A DNA stretch of 64,000 nucleotides from Linyphia triangularis (lineage: Eukaryota > Arthropoda > Arachnida > Araneae > Linyphiidae). The DNA lies in assembly GCA_963978545.1 (NCBI GenBank), contig OZ021722.1:36163365-36227364 (forward strand), written 5' to 3'. Under the pieces are notes generated by a model, which was not told the origin of the DNA, made no database searches, and was given only the letters and a program-made list of their open reading frames with translations. This document shows positions 58 through 64,000 of the stretch, one piece after another. Position 1 is the first letter of the stretch. The number at the start of each line of letters is the position of its first letter. A program made the translations under genes and the position numbers.

Positions 58-69
58 GATAGATTTAAC

Positions 70-74
70 AAAAA
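70..74 (-). terminator. Pol III T5 terminator, type C spacer
   Basis: A T5 run on the minus strand just beyond the first Gln gene (CTCGTCTTTTTG). It is typical of C33 and A33 monomers, which have only T5, against T6 after UUG-intact copies and T7-T10 in type A spacers. Confidence 0.7.
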
Positions 75-78
75 GACG

Positions 79-227
79 AGGTTCTACCGAGATTCGAAAT
101 CGGATCGCTGGATTCAAGGTCCAGAGTGCTAACCATTACACGATAAAACCAATTTTTCCCACGCCGGGAATCGAACAAGGGCCGCCTGGGTGAAAGCCAG
201 GAATCCTAACCACTAGACCACATGGGC
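79..227 (-). tRNA. tRNA-Glu(UUC)-tRNA-Gln(UUG) pair, first of array; C33 prototype
   Basis: Gln 79-150, UUG C33: the anticodon loop reads CCUUGAA, so the U33 needed for the U-turn is C. T-stem G53 is U, which breaks the 53-61 pair that is also part of the B box. The acceptor has a U5.G68 wobble (GGTTTTA). Glu 156-227, UUC: this copy alone has a damaged T stem (aaggg where others have ccggg) and a changed first acceptor base, so the outermost pair of the array looks degraded. Probably not functional as a pair. Confidence 0.6.
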
Positions 228-332
228 CAATAAGCCTACGCATTCAAACACTTTAGATATTTAATAAAATTATAAATTGAATTATACGTAAAATTTTAAA
301 AATCATCGCATACATGAGGGATATTAATTTAG

Positions 333-340
333 AAAAAAAA
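333..340 (-). terminator. Pol III T8 terminator, type A spacer
   Basis: A T8 run on the minus strand begins 3-4 nt after the Gln discriminator base. The same placement (T7-T10) recurs in every type A spacer. No T4 lies inside the Glu-Gln pair, so this is the first stop signal a polymerase starting at Glu would meet. Confidence 0.85.
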
Positions 341-343
341 TTT

Positions 344-492
344 AGGTTCTCCCGAGATTCGAACTCGGATCGCTGGATTCAGAGTCCAGAGTGCTGACCA
401 TTACACCTTAGAACACAATTTTCCCAAGCCGGGAATCGAACCCGGGCCGCCTGGGTGAAAGCCATGAATAATAACCACTAGACCACATGGGA
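344..492 (-). tRNA. Glu(UUC)-Gln(CUG) pair
   Basis: Gln 344-415, CUG U1A8 with one extra change (gttctccc). Glu 421-492, UUC D-TTAT/A28. Confidence 0.65.
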
Positions 493-608
493 CAATAAGT
501 TTACGCATTCAAACACTTTAGATATTTAATAAAATTATAAATTGAATTATACGTAAAATTTTAAAAATCATCGCATACATGAGGGATATTAATTTAGAAA
601 AAAAAATT

Positions 609-757
609 AGGTTCTACCGAGATTCGAACTCGGATCGCTGGATTCAGAGTCCAGAGTGCTGACCATTACACCTTAGAACACAATTTTCCCAAGCCGGGAA
701 TCGAACCCGGGCCGCCTGGGTGAAAGCCAGGAATAATAACCACTAGACCACATGGGA
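609..757 (-). tRNA. Glu(UUC)-Gln(CUG) pair; U1A8 / D-TTAT prototype
   Basis: Gln 609-680: anticodon CUG, intact anticodon and T arms (CCGAG TTCGAAT CTCGG). The 5' end reads TGTTCTAAGG, so G1 is U (mismatch with C72) and U8, which normally stacks on A14, is A. Glu 686-757: anticodon UUC, intact acceptor and T arm; the 3' D-stem strand GGAT is TTAT, losing two D-stem pairs. The B boxes of both genes are good, so transcription is plausible while folding and charging are doubtful. This is the commonest altered type in the window. Confidence 0.72.
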
Positions 758-873
758 CAATAAGCCTACGCATTCAAACACTTTAGATATTTAATAAAAT
801 TATAAATTGAATTATACGTAAAATTTTAAAAATCATCGCATACATGAGGGATATTAATTTAGAAAAAAAATTT

Positions 874-1022
874 AGGTTCTACCGAGATTCGAACTCGGAT
901 CGCTGGATTCAGAGTCCAGAGTGCTGACCATTACACCTTAGAAAACAATTTTCCCAAGCCGGGAACCGAACCCGGGCCGCCTGGGTGAAAGCCAGGAATC
1001 CTAACCACTAGACCACATGGGA
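874..1022 (-). tRNA. Glu(UUC)-Gln(CUG) pair; U1U2A8 / G58 prototype
   Basis: Gln 874-945, CUG U1U2A8: two unpaired bases at the acceptor end plus A8. Glu 951-1022, UUC G58: the T loop reads TTCGGTT, replacing A58 (the m1A site that pairs with T54 and is a core B-box base), while all stems stay paired. The two changes always travel together in this window (nine copies), followed by a psi unit of subfamily a with a distinctive cttaaacgtg spacer variant. Confidence 0.68.
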
Positions 1023-1137
1023 CAGAATGCCTACGTATTCAAATAAATTTTATATTTAATAAAATAATGCAGAAAATTATACAGAAACATTTTTTAATCC
1101 TTGACATACTTAAACGTGAAATAATTGGGAAAAAATT

Positions 1138-1286
1138 ACGTTCAACTGAAATTTGAGCTGGTATCGCTTTATCCAGAGACAAGAGTGCTGACCATTACAT
1201 CATTGAACTTAATTTTCCCACGCAAGGAATCGAAAATTGGCAGCCTGGGTGATATGTAGTATTCCTAACCATATGACAAAATAGTC
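1138..1286 (-). pseudogene. Decayed Glu-Gln pair, subfamily a prototype
   Basis: Gln-derived part 1138-1209 and Glu-derived part 1215-1286 keep the lengths and order of intact pairs. The Gln T loop reads CTCAAAT where intact copies have TTCGAAT, so the B box is lost, and the anticodon stem is unpaired. The Glu T stem is CCAATT... and the acceptor 5' strand is lost (GACTATTTTG). A T7 run still follows on the minus strand. Confidence 0.9.
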
Positions 1287-1403
1287 TAATGAATTGCATT
1301 TTATCATCCTTTTGATTCAATAACTATATTGCGTAAAAAATACATATGTCCAAAAATATTTCATTCCAGATATATTTAGACATGATAGATTTAACAAAAA
1401 ACT

Positions 1404-1552
1404 AGGTTCTACCGAGATTCGAACTCGGATCGCTGGATTCAAAGTCCAGAGTGCTAACCATTACACCATAGAACCCAAATTTCCCACACCGGGAATCGAA
1501 CCCGGGCCGCCTGGGTGAAAGCCAGGAATATTAACCACTAGACCACATGGGA
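1404..1552 (-). tRNA. Glu(UUC)-Gln(UUG) pair; D-ATAT prototype
   Basis: Gln 1404-1475, UUG intact. Glu 1481-1552, UUC D-ATAT: the D stem loses the C12-G23 pair and gains U13-A22, a milder change than D-TTAT. Acceptor, anticodon and T arms are paired. First monomer of the four-monomer block. Confidence 0.85.
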
Positions 1553-1668
1553 CAATAATCCTACGCATTCAAACACTTTAGATATTTAATAAAATTATAT
1601 AGTCAACTATATGTAAAATTTTAAAAATAATCGCGTACATGAGGGATATTAATTTAGAAAAAAAACTT

Positions 1669-1817
1669 AGGTTCTACCGAGATTCGAACTCGGATCGCTG
1701 GATTCAGAGTCCAGAGTGCTTACCATTACACCATAGAACTCAACTTTCCCACGCCTGGCATCGAACCCGGGCCACTTGGGTGAGAGCCAGGATTCCTAAC
1801 CACTAGACCACATGGGA
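1669..1817 (-). tRNA. Glu(CUC)-Gln(CUG) pair; A1 / weak-stem prototype
   Basis: Gln 1669-1740, CUG A1: the only stem fault is A1 opposite C72. Glu 1746-1817, CUC weak: the anticodon stem has C28.A42 (CCTGG/CCAAG), the T stem has G51.A63 and U60 is G, which also alters the B box (GGTTCGATGCC). These changes occur together in every copy of this type. Second monomer of the four-monomer block. Confidence 0.7.
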
Positions 1818-1933
1818 CAATAAGACTACGCAATCAAACACTTTAGATATTTAATAAAATTTTAATGTCAACTATACGTAAAATTTTAAAAATCATCGCA
1901 TACATGAGAGATATTAATTTAGAAAAAAAACTT

Positions 1934-2082
1934 AGGTTCCACCGAGATTCGAACTCGGATCGCTGGATTCAGAGTCCAGAGTGCTGACCATTACATAATA
2001 GAACCCAATTTTCCCACGCCGGGAATCGAACCCGGGCCGCCTGGGTGAGAGCCAGGAATCCTAACCACTAGACCACGTGGGA
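1934..2082 (-). tRNA. Glu(CUC)-Gln(CUG) pair
   Basis: Gln 1934-2005, CUG with a D-arm change (acataatag for acaccatag). Glu 2011-2082, CUC intact. Confidence 0.85.
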
Positions 2083-2199
2083 CAGAATGCTTACGTAATC
2101 AAATAAATTTTATATTTAATAAAATAATGAAGAAAATTATACAGAAACATTTTATTAATCTTTGACATACTCAAGGGTGAAATAATTGGAAAAAAACTT

Positions 2200-2348
2200 A
2201 CGTTCTACTGAAATGTGAGCTGGTATTGCTGGATCAGGAGATAAGAGTGCTGACCATTACATCATGGAACTTAATTTTCCCTGGCAAGGAATCGAAAATT
2301 GGCAGCCTGGGTGAGATCTTGTACTCCTAACCCTATGACAAAAGATAC
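2200..2348 (-). pseudogene. Decayed Glu-Gln pair, subfamily b prototype
   Basis: Differs from subfamily a by ttctactg at the Gln 3' end, tattgctggatc in the anticodon region, and gagatcttgtactcc in the Glu part. The B box of Gln is lost as in subfamily a. Fourth monomer of the four-monomer block. Confidence 0.9.
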
Positions 2349-2466
2349 TCATGAGTTGCAATTTATCATCCTTTTGATTCAATAACTATATTGCGTAAAA
2401 AAATATATATATCCAAAAATATTTCATTCCAGATATATTTAGACATGATAGATTTAACAAAAAACT

Positions 2467-2615
2467 AGGTTCTACCGAGATTCGAACTCGGATCGCTGGA
2501 TTCAAAGTCCAGAATGCTAACCATTACACCATAGAACCCAAATTTCCCACACCGGGAATCGAACCCGGGCCGCCTGGGTGAAAGCCAGGAATCCTAATCA
2601 CTAGACCACATGGGA
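2467..2615 (-). tRNA. Glu(UUC)-Gln(UUG) pair
   Basis: Gln 2467-2538, UUG with one D-stem change (agaatgc). Glu 2544-2615, UUC intact apart from a D-loop change (taatcac) shared with the pair at 3528. Confidence 0.9.
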
Positions 2616-2731
2616 CAATAAGCCTACGCATTCAAACACTTTAGATATTTAATAAAATTATAAAGTCAACTATATGTAAAATTTTAAAAATAATCGCGTA
2701 CATGAGGGATATTAATTTAGAAAAAAAACTT

Positions 2732-2880
2732 ATGTTCTACCGAGATTCGAACTCGGATCGCTGGATTCAGAGTCCAGAGTGCTTACCATTACACCATAGA
2801 ACTCAACTTTCCCACGCCTGGCATCGAACGCGGGCCACTTGGGTGAGAGCCAGGAATCCTAACCACTAGACCACATGGGA
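2732..2880 (-). tRNA. Glu(CUC)-Gln(CUG) pair
   Basis: Gln 2732-2803, CUG A1, also C72 to A (atgttc). Glu 2809-2880, CUC weak with a further T-stem change (cgaacgcggg). Confidence 0.6.
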
Positions 2881-2995
2881 CAATAAGCCTACGCAATCAA
2901 ACACTTTAGATATTTAATAAAATTTTAATGTCAACTATACGTAAAATTTTAAAAATCATCGCATACATGAGAGATATTAATTTAGAAAAATACTT

Positions 2996-3144
2996 AGGTT
3001 CCACCGAGATTCGAACTCGGATCGCTGGATTCAGAGTCCAGAGTGCTGACCATTACACCATAGAACCCAATTTTCCCACGCCGGGAATCGAACCCGGGCC
3101 GCCTGGGTGAAAGCCAGGAATAATAACCACTAGACCACATGGGA
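2996..3144 (-). tRNA. Glu(UUC)-Gln(CUG) pair
   Basis: Gln 2996-3067, CUG intact. Glu 3073-3144, UUC D-TTAT. Terminator shortened: T5 followed by A (cttaggtt preceded by aaaaata). Confidence 0.8.
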
Positions 3145-3259
3145 CAGAATGCCTACGTATTCAAATAAATTTTATATTTAATAAAATAATGCAGAAAATT
3201 ATACAGAAACATTTTTTAATCCTTGACATACTCAAGGGTGAAATAATTGGAAAAAAATT

Positions 3260-3408
3260 ACGTTCAACTGAAATTTGAGCTGGTATCGCTTTATCCAGAG
3301 ACAAGAGTGCTGACCATTACATCATTGAACTTAATTTTCCCACGCAAGGAATCAGAAATTGGCAGCCTGGGTGAGATCTAGTATTCCTAACCATATGACA
3401 AAATAGTC
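3260..3408 (-). pseudogene. Decayed Glu-Gln pair
   Basis: Subfamily a, with aatcagaaattgg in the Glu T arm. Confidence 0.9.
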
Positions 3409-3527
3409 TAATGAATTGCATTTTATCATCAATTTGATTCAATAACTATATTGCTTAAATATATATATATATCCAAAAATATTTCATTTCTGATATATTT
3501 ATGCATGATAAATTTAACAAAAAGACG

Positions 3528-3675
3528 AGGTTCTACCGAGATTCGAAATCGGATCGCTGTATTCAATGTCCAGAGTGCTAACCATTACACGATAAAACCA
3601 ATTTTCCCACGCCGGGAATCGAACCCGGGCCGCCTGGGTGAAAGCCAGGAATCCTAATCACTAGACCACATGGGA
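3528..3675 (-). tRNA. Glu(UUC)-Gln(UUG) pair; A33 prototype
   Basis: Gln 3528-3599, UUG A33: the anticodon loop reads CAUUGAA, so U33 is A; G30.A40 mismatches the anticodon stem and G53 is U. Glu 3604-3675, UUC intact with taatcac. The linker is 4 nt here instead of 5, as in all A33 pairs. The Gln copy is unlikely to decode, while its Glu partner looks normal. Confidence 0.72.
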
Positions 3676-3791
3676 CAATAAGCCTACGCATTCAAACACT
3701 TTAGATATTTAATAAAATTATAAAGTCAACTATATGTAAAATTTTAAAAATAATCGCGTACATGAGGGATATTAATTTAGAAAAAAAACTT

Positions 3792-3940
3792 ATGTTCTAC
3801 CGAGATTCGAACTCGGATCGCTGGATTCAGAGTCCAGAGTGCTTACCATTACACCATAGAACTCAACTTTCCCACGCCTGGCATCGAACGCGGGCCACTT
3901 GGGTGAGAGCCAGGAATCCTAACCACTAGACCACATGGGA
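3792..3940 (-). tRNA. Glu(CUC)-Gln(CUG) pair
   Basis: Gln 3792-3863, CUG A1 with C72 to A. Glu 3869-3940, CUC weak (cgaacgcggg). Duplicate of the pair at 2732. Confidence 0.6.
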
Positions 3941-4055
3941 CAATAAGCCTACGCAATCAAACACTTTAGATATTTAATAAAATTTTAATGTCAACTATAC
4001 GTAAAATTTTAAAAATCATCGCATACATGAGAGATATTAATTTAGAAAAATACTT

Positions 4056-4204
4056 AGGTTCCACCGAGATTCGAACTCGGATCGCTGGATTCAGAGTCCA
4101 GAGTGCTGACCATTACACCATAGAACCCAATTTTCCCACGCCGGGAATCGAACCCGGGCCGCCTGGGTGAAAGCCAGGAATAATAACCACTAGACCACAT
4201 GGGA
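4056..4204 (-). tRNA. Glu(UUC)-Gln(CUG) pair
   Basis: Gln 4056-4127, CUG intact. Glu 4133-4204, UUC D-TTAT. Duplicate of the pair at 2996. Confidence 0.8.
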
Positions 4205-4319
4205 CAGAATGCCTACGTATTCAAATAAATTTTATATTTAATAAAATAATGCAGAAAATTATACAGAAACATTTTTTAATCCTTGACATACTCAAGGGTG
4301 AAATAATTGGAAAAAAATT

Positions 4320-4468
4320 ACGTTCAACTGAAATTTGAGCTGGTATCGCTTTATCCAGAGACAAGAGTGCTGACCATTACATCATTGAACTTAATTTTCC
4401 CACGCAAGGAATCAGAAATTGGCAGCCTGGGTGAGATCTAGTATTCCTAACCATATGACAAAATAGTC
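4320..4468 (-). pseudogene. Decayed Glu-Gln pair
   Basis: Subfamily a; duplicate of the unit at 3260. Confidence 0.9.
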
Positions 4469-4587
4469 TAATGAATTGCATTTTATCATCAATTTGATTC
4501 AATAACTATATTGCTTAAATATATATATATATCCAAAAATATTTCATTTCTGATATATTTATGCATGATAAATTTAACAAAAAGACG

Positions 4588-4735
4588 AGGTTCTACCGAG
4601 ATTCGAAATCGGATCGCTGTATTCAATGTCCAGAGTGCTAACCATTACACGATAAAACCAATTTTCCCACGCCGGGAATCGAACCCGGGCCGCCTGGGTG
4701 AAAGCCATGAATAATAACCACTAGACCACATGGGA
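4588..4735 (-). tRNA. Glu(UUC)-Gln(UUG) pair
   Basis: Gln 4588-4659, UUG A33. Glu 4664-4735, UUC D-TTAT/A28: the only A33 Gln joined to this Glu type, marking the end of the 1060-bp duplication. Confidence 0.62.
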
Positions 4736-4851
4736 CAATAAGTTTACGCATTCAAACTTTTTAGATATTTAATAAAATTATAAATTGAATTATACGTAAA
4801 ATTTTAAAAATCATCGCATACATGAGGGATATTAATTTAGAAAAAAAAATT

Positions 4852-5000
4852 AGGTTCTACCGAGATTCGAACTCGGATCGCTGGATTCAGAGTCCAGAGT
4901 GCTGACCATTACACCTTAGAACACAATTTTCCCAAGCCGGGAATCGAACCCGGGCCGCCTGGGTGAAAGCCAGGAATAATAACCACTAGACCACATGGGA
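4852..5000 (-). tRNA. Glu(UUC)-Gln(CUG) pair
   Basis: Gln 4852-4923, CUG U1A8. Glu 4929-5000, UUC D-TTAT. Confidence 0.72.
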
Positions 5001-5116
5001 CAATAAGCCTACGCATTCAAACACTTTAGATATTTAATAAAATTATAAAGTCAACTATATGTAAAATTTTAAAAATAATCGCGTACATGAGGGATATTAA
5101 TTTAGAAAAAAAACTT

Positions 5117-5265
5117 AGGTTCCACCGAGATTCGAACTCGGATCGCTGGATTCAGAGTCCAGAGTGCTGACCATTACACCATAGAACCCAATTTTCCTAC
5201 GCCGGGAATCGAACCCGCGCCGCCTGGGTAAAAGCCAGGAATCCTAAACACTAGACCACATGGGA
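5117..5265 (-). tRNA. Glu-body tRNA with UUU anticodon, and Gln(CUG)
   Basis: Gln 5117-5188, CUG intact. Glu-type 5194-5265, UUU (anticodon at 5230-5232). The body also has a C4.A69 acceptor mismatch (cctacg) and G49.G65 in the T stem (cgcgcc), so it is probably decaying. Confidence 0.7.
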
Positions 5266-5381
5266 CAATAAGACTACGCAATCAAACACTTTAGATATTT
5301 AATAAAATTTTAATGTCAACTATACGTAAAATTTTAAAAATCATCGCATACATGAGAGATATTAATTTAGAAAAAAAACTT

Positions 5382-5530
5382 AGGTTCCACCGAGATTCGA
5401 ACTCGGATCGCTGGATTCAGAGTATAGAGTGCTGACCATTACACCATAGAACCCAATTTTCCCACGCCGGGAATCGAACCCGGGCCGCCTGGGTGAGAGC
5501 CAGGAATCCTAACCACTAGACCACGTGGGA
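5382..5530 (-). tRNA. Glu(CUC)-Gln(CUG) pair
   Basis: Gln 5382-5453, CUG with an altered anticodon stem (gtatagag). Glu 5459-5530, CUC intact. Confidence 0.8.
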
Positions 5531-5647
5531 CAGAATGCTTACGTAATCAAATAAATTTTATATTTAATAAAATAATGAAGAAAATTATACAGAAACATTT
5601 TATTAATCTTTGACATACTCAAGGGTGAAATAATTGGAAAAAAACTT

Positions 5648-5796
5648 ACGTTCTACTGAAATATGAGCTGGTATTGCTGGATCAAGAGATAAGAGTGCTG
5701 ACCATTACATCATGGAACTTAATTTTCCCTCGCAAGGAATCGAAAATTGGCAGCCTGGGTGAGATCTTGTACTCCTAACCCTTTGACAAAAGATAC
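5648..5796 (-). pseudogene. Decayed Glu-Gln pair
   Basis: Subfamily b, with ccctttgac at the Glu 5' end. Confidence 0.9.
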
Positions 5797-5914
5797 TCAT
5801 GAGTTGCAATTTATCATCCTTTTGATTCAATAACTATATTGCGTAAAAAAATATATATATCCAAAAATATTTCATTCCAGATATATTTAGACATGATAGA
5901 TTTAACAAAAAACT

Positions 5915-6063
5915 AGGTTCTACCGATATTCGAACTCGGATCGCTGGATTCAAAGTCCAGAGTGCTAACCATTACACCATAGAACCCAAATTTCCCACAC
6001 CGGGAATCGAACCCGGGCCGCCTGGGTGAAAGCCAGGAATCCTAACCACTAGACCACATGGGA
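5915..6063 (-). tRNA. Glu(UUC)-Gln(UUG) pair
   Basis: Gln 5915-5986, UUG with one T-stem change (gatattcg). Glu 5992-6063, UUC intact. Confidence 0.88.
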
Positions 6064-6179
6064 CAATAAGCCTACGCATTCAAACACTTTAGATATTTAA
6101 TAAAATTATAAAGTCAACTATATGTAAAATTTTAAAAATAATCGCGTACATGAGGGATATTAATTTAGAAAAAAAACTT

Positions 6180-6328
6180 AGGTTCTACCGAGATTCGAAC
6201 TCGGATCGCTGGATTCAGAGTCCAGAGTGCTTACCATTACACCATAGAACTCAACTTTCCCACGCCTGGCATCGAACGCGGGCCACTTGGGTGAGAGCCA
6301 GGAATCCTAACCACTAGACCACATGGGA
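6180..6328 (-). tRNA. Glu(CUC)-Gln(CUG) pair
   Basis: Gln 6180-6251, CUG A1. Glu 6257-6328, CUC weak (cgaacgcggg). Confidence 0.68.
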
Positions 6329-6443
6329 CAATAAGCCTACGCAATCAAACACTTTAGATATTTAATAAAATTTTAATGTCAACTATACGTAAAATTTTAA
6401 AAATCATCGCATACATGAGAGATATTAATTTAGAAAAATACTT

Positions 6444-6592
6444 AGGTTCCACCGAGATTCGAACTCGGATCGCTGGATTCAGAGTCCAGAGTGCTGACCA
6501 TTACACCTTAGAAAACAATTTTCCCAAGCCGGGAACCGAACCCGGGCCGCCTGGGTGAAAGCCAGGAATCCTAACCACTAGACCACATGGGA
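6444..6592 (-). tRNA. Glu(UUC)-Gln(CUG) pair
   Basis: Gln 6444-6515, CUG U1U2A8 but with the ttccacc 3' end of the CUG intact type, so a recombinant. Glu 6521-6592, UUC G58. Confidence 0.68.
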
Positions 6593-6707
6593 CAGAATGC
6601 CTACGTATTCAAATAAATTTTATATTTAATAAAATAATGCAGAAAATTATACAGAAACATTTTTTAATCCTTGACATACTTAAACGTGAAATAATTGGGA
6701 AAAAATT

Positions 6708-6856
6708 ACGTTCAACTGAAATTTGAGCTGGTATCGCTTTATCCAGAGACAAGAGTGCTGACCATTACATCATTGAACTTAATTTTCCCACGCAAGGAAT
6801 CATAAATTGGCAGCCTGGGTGAGATCTAGTATTCCTAACCATATGACAAAATAGTC
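6708..6856 (-). pseudogene. Decayed Glu-Gln pair
   Basis: Subfamily a, preceded by the cttaaacgtg spacer variant. Confidence 0.9.
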
Positions 6857-6975
6857 TAATGAATTGCATTTTATCATCAATTTGATTCAATAACTATATT
6901 GCTTAAAAATATATATATATCCAAAAATATTTCATTTCTGATATATTTATGCATGATAAATTTAACAAAAACACT

Positions 6976-7124
6976 AGGTTCTAATGAGATTAGAAATCGG
7001 TTCGCCGGATTCAAAGTCTAGAGTGCTACCCATTACACGATAGAACCAATCTTTCCCACGCCGGGAATCGAACCCGGGCCGCCTGGGTGAGAGCCAGGAA
7101 TCCTAACCACTAGACCACGTTGGA
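6976..7124 (-). tRNA. Glu(CUC) with decayed Gln(UUG); prototype
   Basis: Gln-like 6976-7047, UUG decayed: the T loop is TTCTAAT (C56-G57 contact and B box damaged), the anticodon stem is CTAGA/TCCGG with an A.C mismatch, yet the anticodon loop CUUUGAA is intact. Glu 7053-7124, CUC intact except one acceptor change (cacgttgga). Seven copies of this type exist, each flanked by psi units on both sides. Confidence 0.75.
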
Positions 7125-7241
7125 CAGAATGCTTACGTATTCAAATAAATTTTATATTTAATAAAATAATGAAGAAAATTATACAGAAACATTTTATTAA
7201 TCTTTGACATACTCAAGGGTGAAATAATTGGAAAAAAACTT

Positions 7242-7390
7242 ACGTTCTACTGAAATATGAGCTGGTATTGCTGGATCAAGAGATAAGAGTGCTGACAATT
7301 ACATCATTGAACTTAATTTTCCCTCGCAAGGAATCGAAAATTGGCAGCCTGGGTGAGATCTTGTACTCCTAACCCTATGACAAAAGATAC
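7242..7390 (-). pseudogene. Decayed Glu-Gln pair
   Basis: Subfamily b (gacaattac variant). Confidence 0.9.
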
Positions 7391-7509
7391 TCATGAATTG
7401 CAATTTATCATCCTTTTGATTCAATAACTATATTGCGTAAAAAAATATATATATCCAAAAATATTTCATTCCAGATATATTTAGACATGATAGATTTAAC
7501 AAAAAGACG

Positions 7510-7658
7510 AAGTTCCACCGAGATTCGAACTCGGATCGCTGGATTCAGAGTCCAGAGTGCTGACCATTACACCATAGAACCCAATTTTCCCACGCCGGGA
7601 ATCGAACCCGGGCCGCCTGGGTAAAAGCCAGGAATCCTACACACTAGACAACATGGGA
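7510..7658 (-). tRNA. Glu-body tRNA with UUU anticodon, and Gln(CUG)
   Basis: Gln 7510-7581, CUG with one acceptor change (aagttcc). Glu-type 7587-7658, UUU (7623-7625); the D loop has lost G19 (ctacacac) and position 9 is changed. Confidence 0.7.
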
Positions 7659-7775
7659 CAGAATGCCTAAGTATTCAAATAAGTTTTATATTTCATAAAA
7701 TAATGAAGAAAATTATACGGAAACATTTTAATAATCCTCGACATACTCAAGGGTGAAATAATTGGAAAAAAATTT

Positions 7776-7924
7776 ACGTTCTACTGAAATTTTAGCTAGT
7801 ATCGCTGGATCCAGAGACAAGAGTGCTGACCATTACATCACTGAACTTAATTTTCCCACGCAAGGAATCAAAAATTGGCAGCCTGGGTGGGATCTAGTAC
7901 TCCTAACCATATGACAAAAGAGTT
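7776..7924 (-). pseudogene. Decayed Glu-Gln pair, subfamily c prototype
   Basis: Marked by gaaattttagct and tggatccagagac. Intermediate between a and b: its anticodon region still pairs partly with the intact consensus. Preceded by a diverged type B spacer (aagttttatatttcat). Confidence 0.9.
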
Positions 7925-8042
7925 TAATGAATTGCATTTTATCATCCTTTTGATTCAATAATTATATTGCGTAAAAAATACATATGTCCAAAAATATTTC
8001 ATTCCATATATATTTATACATGAGAGATTTAACAAAAAGACG

Positions 8043-8191
8043 AGGTTATACCGAGATTCGAAATCGGATCGCTGGATTCAAGGTCCAGAGTGCTAACCAT
8101 TACACGATAAAACCAATTTTTCCCACGCCGGGAATCGAACCCGGGCCGCCTGGGTGAAAGCCAGGAATCCTAACCACTAGACCACATGGGA
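8043..8191 (-). tRNA. Glu(UUC)-Gln(UUG) pair
   Basis: Gln 8043-8114, UUG C33 with an acceptor change (ggttatacc). Glu 8120-8191, UUC intact. Confidence 0.75.
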
Positions 8192-8308
8192 CAATAAGCC
8201 TACGCATTCAAACACTTTAGATATTTAATAAAATTATAAATTGAATTATACGTAAAATTTTAAAAATCATCGCATACATGAGGGATATTAATTTAGAAAA
8301 AAAAATTT

Positions 8309-8457
8309 AGGTTCTACCGAGATTCGAACTCGGATCGCTGGATTCAGAGTACAGAGTGCTGACCATTACACCTTAGAACACAACTTTCCCAAGCCGGGAA
8401 TCGAACCCGGGCCGCCTGGGTGAGAGCCAGGAATCCTAACCACTAGACCACGTGGGA
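8309..8457 (-). tRNA. Glu(CUC)-Gln(CUG) pair
   Basis: Gln 8309-8380, CUG U1A8 with a broken anticodon stem (gtacagag). Glu 8386-8457, CUC intact: an unusual combination. Confidence 0.75.
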
Positions 8458-55730: not shown

Positions 55731-55846
55731 CAATAAGCCTACGCATTCAAACACTTTAGATATTTAATAAAATTATATAGTCAACTATATGTAAAATTTT
55801 AAAAATAATCGCGTACATGAGGGATATTAATTTAGAAAAAAAACTT

Positions 55847-55995
55847 AGGTTCTACCGAGATTCGAACTCGGATCGCTGGATTCAGAGTCCAGAGTGCTTA
55901 CCATTACACCATAGAACTCAACTTTCCCACGCCTGGCATCGAACCCGGGCCACTTGGGTGAGAGCCAGGATTCCTAACCACTAGACCACATGGGA
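55847..55995 (-). tRNA. Glu(CUC)-Gln(CUG) pair
   Basis: Gln 55847-55918, CUG A1. Glu 55924-55995, CUC weak. Confidence 0.7.
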
Positions 55996-56111
55996 CAATA
56001 AGACTACGCAATCAAACACTTTAGATATTTAATAAAATTTTAATGTCAACTATACGTAAAATTTTAAAAATCATCGCATACATGAGAGATATTAATTTAG
56101 AAAAAAAACTT

Positions 56112-56260
56112 AGGTTCCACCGAGATTCGAACTCGGATCGCTGGATTCAGAGTCCAGAGTGCTGACCATTACACCATAGAACCCAATTTTCCCACGCCGG
56201 GAATCGAACCCGGGCCGCCTGGGTGAGAGCCAGGAATCCTAACCACTAGACCACGTGTGA
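56112..56260 (-). tRNA. Glu(CUC)-Gln(CUG) pair
   Basis: Gln 56112-56183, CUG intact. Glu 56189-56260, CUC with one acceptor change (cacgtgtga). Confidence 0.9.
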
Positions 56261-56377
56261 CAGAATGCTTACGTAATCAAATAAATTTTATATTTAATAA
56301 AATAATGAAGAAAATTATGCAGAAACATTTTATTAATCTTTGACATACTCAAGGGTGAAATAATTGGAAAAAAACTT

Positions 56378-56526
56378 ACGTTCTACTGAAATATGAGCTG
56401 GTATTGCTGGATCAAGAGATAAGAGTGCTGACCACTACATCATTGAACTTAATTTTCCCTCGCAAGGAATCGAAAATTGGCAGCCTGGGTGAGATCTTGT
56501 ACTCCTAACCCTATGACAAAAGATAC
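56378..56526 (-). pseudogene. Decayed Glu-Gln pair
   Basis: Subfamily b (gaccactac). Confidence 0.9.
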
Positions 56527-56646
56527 TCATGAATTGCAATTTATCATCCTTTTGATTCAATAACTATATTGCGTAAAAAATATATATATATCCAAAAATA
56601 TTTCATTCCAGATATATTTATACATGATAGATTTAACAAAAAGACG

Positions 56647-56794
56647 AGGTTCTACCAAGATTCGAAATCGGATCGCTGTATTCAATGTCCAGAGTGCTAA
56701 CCATTACACGATAAAACCAATTTTCCCACGCCGGGAATCGAACCCGGGCCGCCTGGGTGAAAGCCAGGAATCCTAACCACTAGACCACATGGGA
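56647..56794 (-). tRNA. Glu(UUC)-Gln(UUG) pair
   Basis: Gln 56647-56718, UUG A33 with accaagattcg. Glu 56723-56794, UUC intact. Confidence 0.73.
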
Positions 56795-56910
56795 CAATAA
56801 GCCTACGCATTCAAACACTTTAGATATTTAATAAAATTATAAATTGAATTATACGTAAAATTTTAAAAATCATCGCATACATGAGGGATATTAATTTAGA
56901 AAAAAAATTT

Positions 56911-57059
56911 AGGTTCTACCGAGATTCGAACTCGGATCGCTGGATTCAGAGTCCAGAGTGCTGACCATTACACCTTAGAACACAATTTTCCCAAGCCGGG
57001 AATCGAACCCGGGCCGCCTGGGTGAAAGCCATGAATAATAACCACTAGACCACATGGGA
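56911..57059 (-). tRNA. Glu(UUC)-Gln(CUG) pair
   Basis: Gln 56911-56982, CUG U1A8. Glu 56988-57059, UUC D-TTAT/A28. Confidence 0.68.
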
Positions 57060-57175
57060 CAATAAGTTTACGCATTCAAACACTTTAGATATTTAATAAA
57101 ATTATAAATTGAATTATACGTAAAATTTTAAAAATCATCGCATACATGAGGGATATTAATTTAGAAAAAAAAATT

Positions 57176-57324
57176 AGGTTCTACCGAGATTCGAACTCGG
57201 ATCGCTGGATTCAGAGTCCAGAGTGCTGACCATTACACCTTAGAACACAATTTTCCCAAGCCGGGAATCGAACCCGGGCCGCCTGGGTGAAAGCCAGGAA
57301 TAATAACCACTAGACCACATGGGA
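57176..57324 (-). tRNA. Glu(UUC)-Gln(CUG) pair
   Basis: Gln 57176-57247, CUG U1A8. Glu 57253-57324, UUC D-TTAT. Confidence 0.72.
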
Positions 57325-57440
57325 CAATAAGCCTACGCATTCAAACACTTTAGATATTTAATAAAATTATAAAGTCAACTATATGTAAAATTTTAAAAAT
57401 AATCGCGTACATGAGGGATATTAATTTAGAAAAAAAACTT

Positions 57441-57589
57441 AGGTTCCACCGAGATTCGAACTCGGATCGCTGGATTCAGAGTCCAGAGTGCTGACCATTA
57501 CACCATAGAACACAATTTTCCCAATCCGGGAATCGAACCCGGGCCGCCTGGGTGAAAGCCAGGAATCCTAACCACTAGACCACATGGGA
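57441..57589 (-). tRNA. Glu(UUC)-Gln(CUG) pair
   Basis: Gln 57441-57512, CUG with U8 intact and G1 to U, as at 50008. Glu 57518-57589, UUC intact (aatccggg). Confidence 0.82.
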
Positions 57590-57705
57590 CAATAAGCCTA
57601 CGCATTCAAACACTTTAGATATTTAATAAAATTATAAATTGAAATATACGTAAAATTTTAAAAATCATCGCATAAGTGAGGGATATTAATTTAGAAAAAA
57701 AATTT

Positions 57706-57854
57706 AGGTTCTACCGAGATTCGAACTCGGATCGCTGGATTCAGAGTCCAGAGTGCTGACCATTACACCTTAGAACACAATTTTCCCAAGCCGGGAATCG
57801 AACCCGGGCCGCCTGGGTGAAAGCCATGAATAATAACCACTAGACCACATGGGA
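57706..57854 (-). tRNA. Glu(UUC)-Gln(CUG) pair
   Basis: Gln 57706-57777, CUG U1A8. Glu 57783-57854, UUC D-TTAT/A28. Confidence 0.68.
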
Positions 57855-57969
57855 CAGAATGCCTACGTATTCAAATAAATTTTATATTTAATAAAATAAT
57901 GCAGAAAATTATACAGAAACATTTTTTAATCCTTGACATACTCAAGGGTGAAATAATTGGAAAAAAATT

Positions 57970-58118
57970 ACGTTCAACTGAAATTTGAGCTGGTATCGCT
58001 TTATCCAGAGACAAGAGTCCTGACCATTACATCATTGAACTTAATTTTCCCATGCAAGGAATCGAAAATTAGCAGCCTGGGTGAGATCTAGTATTCCTAA
58101 CCATATGACAAAATAGTC
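57970..58118 (-). pseudogene. Decayed Glu-Gln pair
   Basis: Subfamily a (gagtcctgacc). Confidence 0.9.
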
Positions 58119-58235
58119 TAATGAATTGCATTTTATCATCAATTTGATTCAATATATATATTGCTTAAAAAATATATATATCCAAAAATATTTCATTCCA
58201 GATATATTTAGACATGATAGATTTAACAAAAAACT

Positions 58236-58384
58236 AGGTTCTACCGAGATTCGAACTCGGATCGCTATATTCAGAGTCCAGAGTGCTGACCATTACACCA
58301 TAGAACCCGATTTTCCCACGCCGGGAATCGAACCCGGGCCGCCTGGGTGAGAGCCAGGAATCCTAACCACTAGACCACGTGGGA
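58236..58384 (-). tRNA. Glu(CUC)-Gln(CUG) pair
   Basis: Gln 58236-58307, CUG with gctatattcag. Glu 58313-58384, CUC intact. Confidence 0.82.
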
Positions 58385-58501
58385 CAGAATGCTTACGTAA
58401 TCAAATAAATTTTATATTTAATAAAATAATGAAGAAAATTATACAGAAACATTTTATTAATCTTTGACATACTCAAGGGTGAAATAATTGGAAAAAAACT
58501 T

Positions 58502-58650
58502 ACGTTCTACTGAAATATGAGCTGGTATTGCTGGATCAAGAGATAAGAGTGCTGACCATTACATCATTGAACTTAATTTTCCCTCGCAAGGAATCGAAAA
58601 TTGGCAGCCTGGGTGAGATCTTGTACTCCTAACCCTATGACAAAAGATAC
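58502..58650 (-). pseudogene. Decayed Glu-Gln pair
   Basis: Subfamily b. Confidence 0.9.
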
Positions 58651-58768
58651 TCATGAGTTGCAATTTATCATCCTTTTGATTCAATAACTATATTGCGTAA
58701 AAAAATATATATATCCAAAAATATTTCATTCCAGATATATTTAGACATGATAGATTTAACAAAAAACT

Positions 58769-58917
58769 AGGTTCTACCGAGATTCGAACTCGGATCGCTG
58801 GATTCAAAGTCCAGAGTGCTAACCATTACACCATAGAACCCAAATTTCCCACACCGGGAATCGAACCCGGGCCGCCTGGGTGAAAGCCAGGAATCCTAAC
58901 CACTAGACCACATGGGA
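58769..58917 (-). tRNA. Glu(UUC)-Gln(UUG) pair
   Basis: Gln 58769-58840, UUG intact. Glu 58846-58917, UUC intact. Confidence 0.95.
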
Positions 58918-59033
58918 CAATAAGCCTACGCATTCAAACAATTTAGATATTTAATAAAATTATAAATTGAATTATACGTAAAATTTTAAAAATCATCGCA
59001 TACATGAGGGATATTAATTTAGAAAAAAAATTT

Positions 59034-59182
59034 AGGTTCTACCGAGATTCGAACTCGGATCGCTGGATTCAGAGTCCAGAGTGCTGACCATTACACCTTA
59101 GAAAACAATTTTCCCAAGCCGGGAACCGAACCCGGGCCGCCTGGGTGAAAGCCAGGAATCCTAACCACTAGACCACATGGGA
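59034..59182 (-). tRNA. Glu(UUC)-Gln(CUG) pair
   Basis: Gln 59034-59105, CUG U1U2A8. Glu 59111-59182, UUC G58. Confidence 0.68.
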
Positions 59183-59297
59183 CAGAATGCCTACGTATCC
59201 AAATAAATTTTATATTTAATAAAATAATGCAGAAAATTATACAGAAACATTTTTTAATCCTTGACATACTTAAACGTGAAATAATTGGGAAAAAATT

Positions 59298-59446
59298 ACG
59301 TTCAACTGAAATTTGAGCTGGTATCGCTTTATCCAGAGACAAGAGTGCTGACCATTACATCATTGAACTTAATTTTCCCACGCAAGGAATCGAAAATTCT
59401 CAGCCTGGGTGATATGTAGTATTCCTAACCATATGACAAAATAGTC
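59298..59446 (-). pseudogene. Decayed Glu-Gln pair
   Basis: Subfamily a (aaaattctcagcc). Confidence 0.9.
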
Positions 59447-59563
59447 TAATGAATTGCATTTTATCATCCTTTTGATTCAATAACTATATTGCGTAAAAAA
59501 TACATATGTCCAAAAATATTTCATTCCAGATATATTTAGACATGATAGATTTAACAAAAAACT

Positions 59564-59706
59564 AGGTTCTACCGAGATTCGAACTCGGATCGCTGGATTC
59601 AAAGTCCAGAGTGCTAACACCATAGAACCCAAATTTCCCACACCGGGAATCGAACCCGGGCCGCCTGGGTGAAAGCCAGGAATATTAACCACTAGACCAC
59701 ATGGGA
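59564..59706 (-). tRNA. Glu(UUC) with Gln(UUG) carrying a 6-nt D-arm deletion
   Basis: Gln-like 59564-59629 is only 66 nt: the D arm lost six bases (gtgctaacaccatag), removing much of the D loop and the A box. Otherwise UUG intact. Glu 59635-59706, UUC D-ATAT. The matching monomer at 52131 has no deletion, so it is newer than the 7433-bp duplication. Confidence 0.78.
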
Positions 59707-59822
59707 CAATAAGCCTACGCATTCAAACACTTTAGATATTTAATAAAATTATATAGTCAACTATATGTAAAATTTTAAAAATAATCGCGTACATGAGGGA
59801 TATTAATTTAGAAAAAAAACTT

Positions 59823-59971
59823 AGGTTCTACCGAGATTCAAACTCGGATCGCTGGATTCAGAGTCCAGAGTGCTTACCATTACACCATAGAACTCAACTT
59901 TCCCACGCCTGGCATCGAACCCGGGCCACTTGGGTGAGAGCCAGGATTCCTAACCACTAGACCACATGGGA
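59823..59971 (-). tRNA. Glu(CUC)-Gln(CUG) pair
   Basis: Gln 59823-59894, CUG A1 with a T-loop change (gattcaaactcgg). Glu 59900-59971, CUC weak. Confidence 0.67.
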
Positions 59972-60087
59972 CAATAAGACTACGCAATCAAACACTTTAG
60001 ATATTTAATAAAATTTTAATGTCAACTATACGTAAAATTTTAAAAATCATCGCATACATGAGAGATATTAATTTAGAAAAAAAACTT

Positions 60088-60236
60088 AGGTTCCACCGAG
60101 ATTCGAACTCGGATCGCTGGATTCAGAGTCCAGAGTGCTGACCATTACACCATAGAACCCAATTTTCCCACGCCGGGAATCGAACCCGGGCCGCCTGGGT
60201 GAGAGCCAGGAATCCTAACCACTAGACCACGTGGGA
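60088..60236 (-). tRNA. Glu(CUC)-Gln(CUG) pair
   Basis: Gln 60088-60159, CUG intact. Glu 60165-60236, CUC intact. Confidence 0.95.
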
Positions 60237-60353
60237 CAGAATGCTTACGTAATCAAATAAATTTTATATTTAATAAAATAATGAAGAAAATTATACAGAA
60301 ACATTTTATTAATCTTTGACATACTCAAGGGTGAAATAATTGGAAAAAAACTT

Positions 60354-60502
60354 ACGTTCTACTTAAATATGAGCTGGTATTGCTGGATCAAGAGATAAGA
60401 GTGCTGACAATTACATCATTGAACTTAATTTTCCCTCGCAAGGAATCGAAAATTGGCAGCCTGGGTGAGATCTTGTACTCCTAACCCTATGACAAAAGAT
60501 AC
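60354..60502 (-). pseudogene. Decayed Glu-Gln pair
   Basis: Subfamily b (ttctacttaaat). Confidence 0.9.
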
Positions 60503-60622
60503 TCATGAATTGCAATTTATCATCCTTTTGATTCAATAACTATATTGCGTAAAAAATATATATATATCCAAAAATATTTCATTCCAGATATATTTATACA
60601 TGATAGATTTAACAAAAAGACG

Positions 60623-60770
60623 AGGTTCTACCAAGATTCGAAATCGGATCGCTGTATTCAATGTCCAGAGTGCTAACCATTACACGATAAAACCAATTTT
60701 CCCACGCCGGGAATCGAACCCGGGCCGCCTGGGTGAAAGCCAGGAATCCTAACCACTAGACCACATGGGA
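60623..60770 (-). tRNA. Glu(UUC)-Gln(UUG) pair
   Basis: Gln 60623-60694, UUG A33 with accaagattcg. Glu 60699-60770, UUC intact. Confidence 0.73.
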
Positions 60771-60886
60771 CAATAAGCCTACGCATTCAAACACTTTAGA
60801 TATTTAATAAAATTATAAATTGAATTATACGTAAAATTTTAAAAATCATCGCATACATGAGGGATATTAATTTAGAAAAAAAATTT

Positions 60887-61035
60887 AGGTTCTACCGAGA
60901 TTCGAACTCGGATCGCTGGATTCAGAGTCCAGAGTGCTGACCATTACACCTTAGAACACAATTTTCCCAAGCCGGGAATCGAACCCGGGCCGCCTGGGTG
61001 AAAGCCATGAATAATAACCACTAGACCACATGGGA
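60887..61035 (-). tRNA. Glu(UUC)-Gln(CUG) pair
   Basis: Gln 60887-60958, CUG U1A8. Glu 60964-61035, UUC D-TTAT/A28. Confidence 0.68.
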
Positions 61036-61151
61036 CAATAAGTTTACGCATTCAAACACTTTAGATATTTAATAAAATTATAAATTGAATTATACGTAAA
61101 ATTTTAAAAATCATCGCATACATGAGGGATATTAATTTAGAAAAAAAAATT

Positions 61152-61300
61152 AGGTTCCACCGAGATTCGAACTCGGATCGCTGGATTCAGAGTCCAGAGT
61201 GCTGACCATTACACCTTAGAACACAATTTTCCCAAGCCGGGAATCGAACCCGGGCCGCCTGGGTGAAAGCCAGGAATAATAACCACTAGACCACATGGGA
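61152..61300 (-). tRNA. Glu(UUC)-Gln(CUG) pair
   Basis: Gln 61152-61223, CUG U1A8 with a ggttccacc 3' end. Glu 61229-61300, UUC D-TTAT. Confidence 0.72.
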
Positions 61301-61416
61301 CAATAAGCCTACGCATTCAAACACTTTAGATATTTAATAAAATTATAAAGTCAACTATATGTAAAATTTTAAAAATAATCGCGTACATGAGGGATATTAA
61401 TTTAGAAAAAAAACTT

Positions 61417-61565
61417 AGGTTCCACCGAGATTCGAACTCGGATCGCTGGATTCAGAGTCCAGAGTGCTGACCATTACACCATAGAACCCAATTTTCCTAC
61501 GCCGGGAATCGAACCCGCGCCGCCTGGGTAAAAGCCAGGAATCCTAACCACTAGACAACATGGGA
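61417..61565 (-). tRNA. Glu-body tRNA with UUU anticodon, and Gln(CUG)
   Basis: Gln 61417-61488, CUG intact. Glu-type 61494-61565, UUU (61530-61532) with cctacg and cgcgcc faults; copy of 53990. Confidence 0.7.
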
Positions 61566-61682
61566 CAGAATGCCTAAGTATTCAAATAAGTTTTATATTT
61601 CATAAAATAATGAAGAAAATTATACGGAAACATTTTAATAATCCTCGACATACTCAAGGGTGAAATAATTGGAAAAAAATTT

Positions 61683-61831
61683 ACGTTCTACTGAAATTTA
61701 AGCTGGTATCGCTGGATCCAGAGACAAGAGTGCTGACCATTACATCATTGAACTTAATTTTCCCACGCAAGGAATCAGAAATTGGCAGCCTGGGTGAGAT
61801 CTAGTACTCCTAATCATATGACAAAAGAGTC
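61683..61831 (-). pseudogene. Decayed Glu-Gln pair
   Basis: Subfamily c (gaaatttaagct). Confidence 0.9.
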
Positions 61832-61948
61832 TAATGAATTGCATTTTATCATCCTTTTGATTCAATAACTATATTGCGTAAAAAATACATATGTCCAAAA
61901 ATATTTCATTCCAGATATATTTAGACATGATAGATTTAACAAAAAACT

Positions 61949-62096
61949 AGGTCCTACCGAGATTCGAACTCGGATCGCTGGATTCAAAGTGCAGAGTGCT
62001 AACCATTACACCATAGAACCCAAATTTCCCACACCGGGAATCGAACCCGGCCGCCTGGGTGAAAGCCAGGAATCCTAACCACTAGACCACATGGGA
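61949..62096 (-). tRNA. Glu(UUC) with 1-nt deletion, and Gln(UUG)
   Basis: Gln 61949-62020, UUG with aggtcc and agtgcag. Glu 62026-62096 is 71 nt: one G is missing from the run before the variable loop (gaacccggccgcc), shortening the T-stem/variable region. The matching copy at 54522 is full length. Confidence 0.75.
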
Positions 62097-62212
62097 CAAT
62101 AAGCCTACGCATTCAAACACTTTAGATATTTAATAAAATTATATAGTCAACTATATGTAAAATTTTAAAAATAATCGCGTACATGAGGGATATTAATTTA
62201 GAAAAAAAACTT

Positions 62213-62361
62213 AGGTTCTAACGATATTCGAACTCGGATCGCTGGATTCAGAGTCCAGAGTGCTTACAATTACACCATAGAACTCAACTTTCCCACGCCT
62301 GGCATCGAACCCGGGCCACTTGGGTGAGAGCCAGGATTCCTAAACACTAGACCACATGGGA
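62213..62361 (-). tRNA. Glu(CUC)-Gln(CUG) pair
   Basis: Gln 62213-62284, CUG A1 with the ctaacgatattcg 3' end of the UUG copy at 54787: recombinant. Glu 62290-62361, CUC weak with a D-loop change (taaacac). Confidence 0.63.
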
Positions 62362-62477
62362 CAATAAGACTACGCAATCAAACACTTTAGATATTTAATA
62401 AAATTTTAATGTCAACTATACGTAAAATTTTAAAAATCATCGCATACATGAGAGATATTAATTTAGAAAAAAAACTT

Positions 62478-62626
62478 AGGTTCCACCGAGATTCGAACTC
62501 GGATCGCTGGATTCAGAGTATAGAGTGCTGACCATTACACCATAGAACCCAATTTTCCCACGCCGGGAATCGAACCCGGGCCGCCTGGGTGAAAGCCAGG
62601 AATCCTAACCACTAGACCACATGGGA
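62478..62626 (-). tRNA. Glu(UUC)-Gln(CUG) pair
   Basis: Gln 62478-62549, CUG with gtatagag anticodon-stem change. Glu 62555-62626, UUC intact. Confidence 0.82.
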
Positions 62627-62741
62627 CAGAATGCCTACGTATCCAAATAAATTTTATATTTAATAAAATAATGCAGAAAATTATACAGAAACATTTTTTA
62701 ATCCTTGACATACTTAAACGTGAAATAATTGGGAAAAAATT

Positions 62742-62890
62742 ACGTTCAACTGAAATTTGAGCTGGTATCGCTTTATCCAGAGACAAGAGTGCTGACCATT
62801 ACATCATTGAACTTAATTTTCCCACGCAAGGAATCGAAAATTGGCAGCCTGGGTGATATGTAGTATTCCTAACCATATGACAAAATAGTC
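62742..62890 (-). pseudogene. Decayed Glu-Gln pair
   Basis: Subfamily a, after the cttaaacgtg spacer. Confidence 0.9.
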
Positions 62891-63007
62891 TAATGAATTG
62901 CATTTTATCATCCTTTTGATTCAATAACTATATTGCGTAAAAAATACATATGTCCAAAAATATTTCATTCCAGATATATTTAGACATGATAGATTTAACA
63001 AAAAACT

Positions 63008-63156
63008 AGGTTCTACCGAGATTCGAACTCGGATCGCTGGATTCAAAGTCCAGAGTGCTAACCATTACACCATAGAACTCAACTTTCCCACGCCTGGCAT
63101 CGAACCCGGGCCACTTGGGTGAGAGCCAGGATTCCTAACCACTAGACCACATGGGA
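63008..63156 (-). tRNA. Glu(CUC)-Gln(UUG) pair, recombinant
   Basis: Gln 63008-63079: UUG body with the A1 5' end of the CUG A1 type. Glu 63085-63156, CUC weak. One monomer is missing relative to the block at 55582, so an unequal crossover inside Gln fused monomers one and two of the four-monomer block. Confidence 0.73.
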
Positions 63157-63272
63157 CAATAAGACTACGCAATCAAACACTTTAGATATTTAATAAAATT
63201 TTAATGTCAACTATACGTAAAATTTTAAAAATCATCGCATACATGAGAGATATTAATTTAGAAAAAAAACTT

Positions 63273-63421
63273 AGGTTCCACCGAGATTCGAACTCGGATC
63301 GCTGGATTCAGAGTCCAGAGTGCTGACCATTACACCATAGAACCCAATTTTCCCACGCCGGGAATCGAACCCGGGCCGCCTGGGTGAGAGCCAGGAATCC
63401 TAACCACTAGACCACGTGGGA
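63273..63421 (-). tRNA. Glu(CUC)-Gln(CUG) pair
   Basis: Gln 63273-63344, CUG intact. Glu 63350-63421, CUC intact. Confidence 0.95.
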
Positions 63422-63538
63422 CAGAATGCTTACGTAATCAAATAAATTTTATATTTAATAAAATAATGAAGAAAATTATACAGAAACATTTTATTAATCT
63501 TTGACATACTCAAGGGTGAAATAATTGGAAAAAAACTT

Positions 63539-63687
63539 ACGTTCTACTGAAATATGAGCTGGTATTGCTGGATCAAGAGATAAGAGTGCTGACAATTACA
63601 TCATTGAACTTAATTTTCCCTCGCAAGGAATCGAAAATTGGCAGCCTGGGTGAGATCTTGTACTCCTAACCCTATGACAAAAGATAC
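63539..63687 (-). pseudogene. Decayed Glu-Gln pair
   Basis: Subfamily b (gacaattac). Confidence 0.9.
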
Positions 63688-63807
63688 TCATGAATTGCAA
63701 TTTATCATCCTTTTGATTCAATAACTATATTGCGTAAAAAATATATATATATCCAAAAATATTTCATTCCAGATATATTTATACATGATAGATTTAACAA
63801 AAAGACG

Positions 63808-63955
63808 AGGTTCTACCGAGATTCGAAATCGGATCGCTGTATTCAATGTCCAGAGTGCTAACCATTACACGATAAAACCAATTTTCCCACGCCGGGAATC
63901 GAACCCGGGCCCCCTGGGTGAAAGCCAGGAATCCTAACCACTAGACCACATGGGA
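63808..63955 (-). tRNA. Glu(UUC)-Gln(UUG) pair
   Basis: Gln 63808-63879, UUG A33. Glu 63884-63955, UUC with a variable-loop change (gggccccctggg). A type A spacer follows and runs off the window. Confidence 0.73.
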
Positions 63956-64000
63956 CAATAAGCCTACGCATTCAAACACTTTAGATATTTAATAAAATTA

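Follow-up and report, generated by a model that had tools for sequence, protein, structure and literature searches.

How does a chromosome come to carry hundreds of transfer RNA (tRNA) genes in a single row, and to what extent are these still genes? We address this question at a locus of the spider Linyphia triangularis (assembly GCA_963978545.1, contig OZ021722.1, positions 36,163,365 to 36,227,364), a stretch of 64,000 nucleotides that we call the window. From about position 58 to its end at 64000, the whole window is one tandem array of ~241 monomers of ~265 base pairs (bp), each built around a tRNA-Glu/tRNA-Gln pair on the minus strand. We consider it probable that an old, functional Glu-Gln cluster has become a higher-order satellite, in which little or no selection now acts on the individual copies and a minority of good copies is left.

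The array is highly regular. Tandem Repeats Finder, one of the checks proposed in an earlier note on this DNA, returned a single array (79-64000, period 265, 240.7 copies), and segmentation anchored on the Gln gene gave 240 monomers, with 238 of the 239 spacings falling at 264-269 bp. The remaining spacing is 525 bp long (59296-59820, minus strand) and reads as two monomers, one of class A (see below) and, after it, a class B-like one that lacks a short piece of the Gln D arm, which is why we count ~241 monomers and not 240. ARAGORN called 326 tRNAs in the window, every one on the minus strand: 166 Glu (111 TTC, 55 CTC), 153 Gln (109 CTG, 44 TTG) and 7 with a Lys anticodon. The same program called none in each of 20 dinucleotide shuffles. 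Rfam gave 344 matches at or above the gathering score and, among the 150 matches listed, all were tRNA (RF00005) on the minus strand. In comparison with human and fly sequences, the tRNAs look animal-like. There is no open reading frame of at least 90 amino acids in the window (bacterial start codons; open-ended frames excluded). The earlier note had thus correctly seen a satellite of ~241 head-to-tail monomers, all in the same orientation, with a Glu/Gln tRNA pair as its monomer. Its figure of some 480 tRNA-like units is right for positions (2 x 241) but too high for recognised tRNAs (326-344); moreover, of the 342 that were strictly tested (see below), 118 are undamaged.

What could such a monomer produce? 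On the gene strand, it consists of an AT-rich spacer, tRNA-Glu, a linker, tRNA-Gln and a T-run with which the next spacer begins. The tRNAs occupy 144 of the ~265 bp, with a consensus G+C fraction of 0.42-0.54 for the tRNA part and 0.20-0.24 for the spacer. In the 171 monomers of classes B and C, the Glu-Gln linker measures 5 nucleotides in 163 cases and 4 in the other 8; its sequence is mainly AATTG, ATTTG or AGTTG. RNA polymerase III (Pol III) terminates at T-runs. The longest T-run just 3' of Gln is 5-10 T in all 238 monomers of classes A, B and C, and the longest run inside Glu-linker-Gln is 2-3 T in 138 of the 171 class B and C monomers. These 138 have the arrangement of a dicistronic pair, with no internal terminator and a terminator after the second gene. 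Most pairs therefore look like a single transcription unit, because Pol III stops at T-runs and, for the most part, meets one only after Gln; some may stop early. A good example lies near the end of the window, where an undamaged tRNA-Glu (CTC; 63350-63421, minus strand), the first gene of its unit, is followed after five bases by an undamaged tRNA-Gln (CTG; 63273-63344, minus strand) and, just downstream, by a terminator-like run of eight T (63262-63269, minus strand; A8 on the plus strand). From this layout we infer a joint Glu-Gln Pol III transcript.

The Pol III A and B boxes were scored against their consensus. Both boxes are present in 150 of the 171 Glu genes and 87 of the 171 Gln genes of classes B and C, and in 0 of 67 class A monomers for either gene. 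The B and C spacers also have in common, some 10-40 bases before Glu and amid otherwise diverged sequence, TTAAATAT and a TTTGAAT.CGTAGGC block, which are perhaps upstream Pol III elements.

A tandem array of tRNA-like sequence with Pol III boxes could in principle consist of copies of a tRNA-headed retroposon, as in the squamate satellites derived from short interspersed elements (SINEs) that are described in PMC10702118. However, a SINE has a single tRNA-like head and each monomer here contains two complete, different tRNAs, many of which have a Glu or Gln anticodon and standard stems up to and including the acceptor, and the one T-run comes after the second gene. Judged by the layout of the monomer, we disfavour a SINE origin as extremely improbable.

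The monomers are not all alike. Clustering separates them into class A (67), class B (102), class C (69) and two odd ones. The B and C consensus sequences differ at 2 of 144 tRNA positions, whereas their spacers differ by 25 mismatches in 110 positions plus 8 gaps. Class A is unlike both in tRNAs and in spacer: relative to B, 15 of 69 Glu positions and 15 of 72 Gln positions are different, and with the aligner used the A and B spacers could not be matched in any meaningful way. Read along the plus strand, the classes nearly always come in the order A, any number of B (including none) and C. With a new unit counted at every class A monomer, and the four monomers ahead of the first A excluded, these A-B(n)-C units number 67, the commonest being ABBC (23), followed by ABC (17), AC (15), ABBBC (6) and other types (6). 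Their length is irregular, from 2 to 8 monomers. In addition, blocks as long as 17 monomers are found again elsewhere in the array, each monomer differing from its counterpart by no more than 1.2%. In higher-order repeats of the alpha-satellite type, diverged monomer classes form multi-monomer units that are amplified as blocks. The present array likewise combines a long head-to-tail arrangement with diverged classes amplified as multi-monomer units; unlike alpha satellite, its monomer is a gene pair, and its unit varies between 2 and 8 monomers. The higher-order repeats that had been noticed earlier are thus borne out by the classes and by the recurring blocks, irregular as they are.

Near-identical blocks that recur at a distance might also come from a false expansion or a loop in the assembly. 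The variant at the array start recurs too: the last monomer of the window (63806-64000, minus strand), truncated by the window end, has unusual variants in common with the first (~58-271), so that this edge variant reappears ~63.7 kb on. Its recurrence may mark a larger repeat or reflect an assembly effect. But the 240 monomers comprise 143 distinct sequences and the composition of the units is varied, which is unlike a simple loop, and an artefact seems to us very improbable. Ahead of the array, positions 1-57 hold a (GAGT)n microsatellite and TATATATATAGA, an AT stretch, and homology to the array starts from ~58.

Are the genes intact? We applied a strict test to the 342 tRNAs of the 171 class B and C monomers, the 67 class A and two odd monomers being excluded; to pass, a tRNA needs standard pairing in 21 stem pairs and the conserved base at 12 positions. 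One alignment column was dropped per class and one-base insertions could escape the test; one Glu scored as undamaged has a one-base deletion in the variable loop. By this measure 224 of the 342 tRNAs fail. Glu is undamaged in 61 of 171 monomers (37 TTC, 24 CTC), Gln in 57 (31 TTG, 26 CTG) and both genes in 29. Among the 67 units, one or more undamaged Glu genes are present in 55, one or more undamaged Gln genes in 43, both kinds in 37 and all four isoacceptors in 1, and 6 contain none. Class A contributes a decayed pair in 67 of 240 monomers (28%); a typical member, with its different spacer, lies at 1136-1401 (minus strand). To judge from its sequence, the class A pair probably died early and has since been copied along.

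This decayed pair provides a yardstick for the others. Within-class diversity in Glu, Gln and spacer is 0.062, 0.058 and 0.064 in class B, 0.056, 0.069 and 0.044 in class C, and 0.078, 0.065 and 0.065 in the decayed class A. Distinct variants per site, compared between tRNA and spacer, give 53/137 vs 32/123 in A (ratio 1.5), 59/144 vs 31/114 in B (1.5) and 62/144 vs 26/114 in C (1.9). In fact, the B and C tRNAs look no more constrained than the class A pair. When sites are separated by base, variation at G/C sites is 0.54 in tRNA vs 0.60 in spacer for A, 0.56 vs 0.74 for B and 0.59 vs 0.38 for C, and variation at A/T sites is somewhat higher in tRNA than in spacer in all three. In no class is the tRNA clearly protected relative to the spacer.

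Damage follows chance as well. Of 121 tRNA variants (summed class by class, a variant present in both B and C being counted twice) 76 are damaging; if the same changes are redistributed at random over sites with the same base, 74.6 are expected to be. In four context classes, damaging variants number 20 of 33 (18.9 expected), 10 of 24 (12.2), 24 of 37 (22.9) and 22 of 35 (22.5). Distinct variants that break a Pol III box number 7 in Glu (8.0 expected) and 14 in Gln (10.3 expected). Selection for the Glu promoter, towards which the box counts lean (150 vs 87 of 171), thus finds no support in the distinct variants and we did not retain it. Differences between perfect haplotypes that preserve structure do not count here as a sign of old selection, because these haplotypes were chosen for being perfect. 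At present, then, individual copies are under weak selection or none.

The more distant past may have been different. Classes B and C show 0 fixed differences over 144 tRNA sites, as against 18 over 112 aligned spacer sites, with 76 polymorphic sites in the tRNAs and 47 in the spacer (Fisher test of fixed vs polymorphic, p 2e-7), a pattern that fits earlier constraint on the tRNA genes. The two classes have polymorphisms in common at 25 of 144 tRNA sites vs 7 of 112 spacer sites (p 0.008), and identical tRNA haplotypes occur in different spacer contexts. These common polymorphisms and travelling haplotypes show exchange between the classes.

Several observations weigh against our reading of an old cluster turned satellite. 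Gene conversion alone could yield the zero fixed B/C differences in the tRNAs. The layout as a two-gene unit is imperfect, since a T4 run lies inside the pair in 33 of the 171 class B and C monomers, where it could stop Pol III early. Of these runs, two of which fall in the same monomer, 17 lie in the 5' portion of Gln, 9 where the linker meets Gln, 7 at the Glu anticodon and 1 in the T arm of Gln. As many as 118 genes are still undamaged; all four isoacceptors are among them, and many have identical haplotypes. Glu is undamaged in 43 of the 66 class B and C monomers that have class A preceding them on the plus strand, and in 18 of 104 elsewhere (the first monomer, which has no preceding neighbour, is excluded from these counts). 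This link to context could reflect selection; common descent explains it too and, because the copies have common descent, the pattern is not independent evidence. In the AB context, which is the best kept, Glu diversity is 0.025 vs 0.047 in its spacer. As raw means, the frequency of damaging variants is lower than that of benign ones in AB (0.069 vs 0.119) and BB (0.190 vs 0.289), about equal in BC and higher for the damaging ones in AC. Finally, dosage selection across the whole array, spread over ~170 copies, could be nearly invisible in each copy.

Some of these points would suit a selected gene-dosage array, that is, Glu and Gln tRNA genes kept to translate proteins rich in Glu and Gln, possibly within a single tissue, as has been suggested for the Arabidopsis SYY cluster. 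Apart from the 118 undamaged genes in 64 kb (Glu TTC and CTC, Gln TTG and CTG) and the AB-context Glu diversity at half that of the spacer, this explanation can point to the T-run retained after Gln in every one of the 238 monomers, to both Glu boxes in 150 of 171, and to the rarity of box-breaking Glu variants (at most 9 of 171, not significant; p 0.08 and 0.23). Yet damaging variants are not depleted, tRNA diversity is close to that of the spacer, a decayed pair is retained in 67 class A monomers, and a single unit of 67 has all four isoacceptors undamaged. We find a dosage array possible but doubtful. The suggestion of such an array in the earlier note is weakened by the chance-level damage, the spacer-like diversity and the 28% of decayed pairs; what stands of it are the 61 Glu and 57 Gln that are undamaged, and the possibility of dosage selection that is spread too thinly over ~170 copies to show in any one of them.

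Alternatively, the tRNA product might not matter, and the array would be a structural satellite, centromeric, subtelomeric or at a boundary, valued for TFIIIC binding or for its chromatin. Satellite-like evolution and higher-order units are in keeping with such a role; tRNA arrays of S. pombe lie between the core centromere and the outer repeats, and a human tRNA tandem repeat was proposed as a boundary element (PMC4041453). But box-breaking variants arise near chance in both genes, and we judge a structural role unlikely.

To explain these results we propose that the array started as a small functional tRNA-Glu/tRNA-Gln cluster at a eukaryotic nuclear locus. Its monomer would have been a compact two-gene Pol III unit, made of Glu with its internal promoter, a 4-5-nucleotide linker, Gln and a T-run. 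Unequal crossing-over and gene conversion, as the sequence pattern suggests, would then have amplified A-B(n)-C units, and tRNA haplotypes would have been swapped between spacer classes. In a recent phase the array would have evolved in the manner of a satellite, its copies accumulating damage at a random rate. The remaining minority (61 Glu, 57 Gln) is probably Pol III-competent by sequence and may still be transcribed, or may be silenced as the Arabidopsis SYY cluster is in most tissues. In a bolder and tentative version, to which we give little credence, the array would be a live animal satellite of two-gene Pol III units, amplifying selfishly and still supplying a large share of the cell's Glu and Gln tRNAs (all four isoacceptors). 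If so, satellite turnover would set the pool of these tRNAs, and the array might be active in some tissues only.

Under the preferred reading of a decaying former cluster, a functional RNA gene cluster has seemingly been caught in the act of turning into satellite DNA. Decayed, damaged and undamaged copies lie side by side and form built-in controls. With them one could ask how strongly selection maintains tandem tRNA genes, and whether satellites can arise from a Pol III unit. Should the array be expressed, a change in copy number would alter the supply of Glu and Gln tRNAs.

How new is such an array? Several relatives have been described. Entamoeba is reported to have nearly its whole set of tRNA genes in tandem arrays, with up to five tRNA genes in a unit; the copies are mostly uniform within an isolate, with no clear evidence of pseudogenes and with concerted evolution invoked (PMC2652664). 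The spider array is likewise a tandem unit of complete tRNA genes, but it contains one amino-acid pair in class-structured units, and its copies are not mostly intact, given 224 failures among 342 class B and C tRNAs and a decayed class A. The Arabidopsis SYY array, a tandem Ser-Tyr-Tyr repeat with pseudogenes, is silent in most tissues and active in root cap cells (PMC12308677). Like ours, it repeats a small unit of mixed tRNA genes in tandem, includes pseudogene copies and has a core that grew by duplication; unlike ours, with its ~241 units, it has 54 clustered tRNA-Tyr genes, 13 of which give tRNA-like RNAs. Amphibians have tandem repeats with tRNA-derived segments, namely Xenopus OAX (satellite I) and newt PolIII/TAN, the latter transcribable in vitro (PMC10702118), but these have one tRNA-related segment where the spider monomer has two tRNAs, both complete and in many cases with standard stems and a Glu or Gln anticodon. 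The human 1q23.3 repeat is also a tandem repeat of tRNA genes, variable in copy number, but its unit measures 7.3 kb, of which tRNA genes make up less than 6%, in 9-43 units (PMC4041453). More generally, large shares of the tRNA genes and pseudogenes of zebrafish, stickleback and Nematostella are clustered (PMC2888827). Among the papers listed in full-text searches of the open-licence literature, some of the lists being incomplete, no title or abstract opening describes a Glu-Gln tRNA satellite. We therefore take the pair satellite to be new as a variant of tandem tRNA arrays and tRNA-derived satellites that are already known, and the array was fairly called unusual, although such arrays and Pol III-type tRNA satellites are already in print.

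Exact-pattern scans with the spacer pattern and the Glu-linker-Gln pattern gave 0 matches each in viral and genome contig collections, and those with the Glu 5' pattern and the flank pattern (1-57) gave 0 in the viral contig collection. These absences say little about eukaryotes, because the scans demanded exact patterns or the collections hold prokaryotes, viruses and phages. One monomer compared with phages by blastn matched three records, in partial tRNA matches of 80-81% identity.

Two smaller observations concern the tRNAs themselves. The 7 copies that couple a Glu body to a TTT anticodon, in monomers starting at 5115, 7508, 44429, 48147, 53988, 55580 and 61415, were considered as a functional Lys-reading tRNA and rejected, each failing the strict test elsewhere. 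On the gene strand of the B and C tRNAs, G>T changes number 29 and C>A changes 14 (summed class by class), at 86 G and 72 C sites, an excess that is possibly the mark of a strand-biased mutation process.

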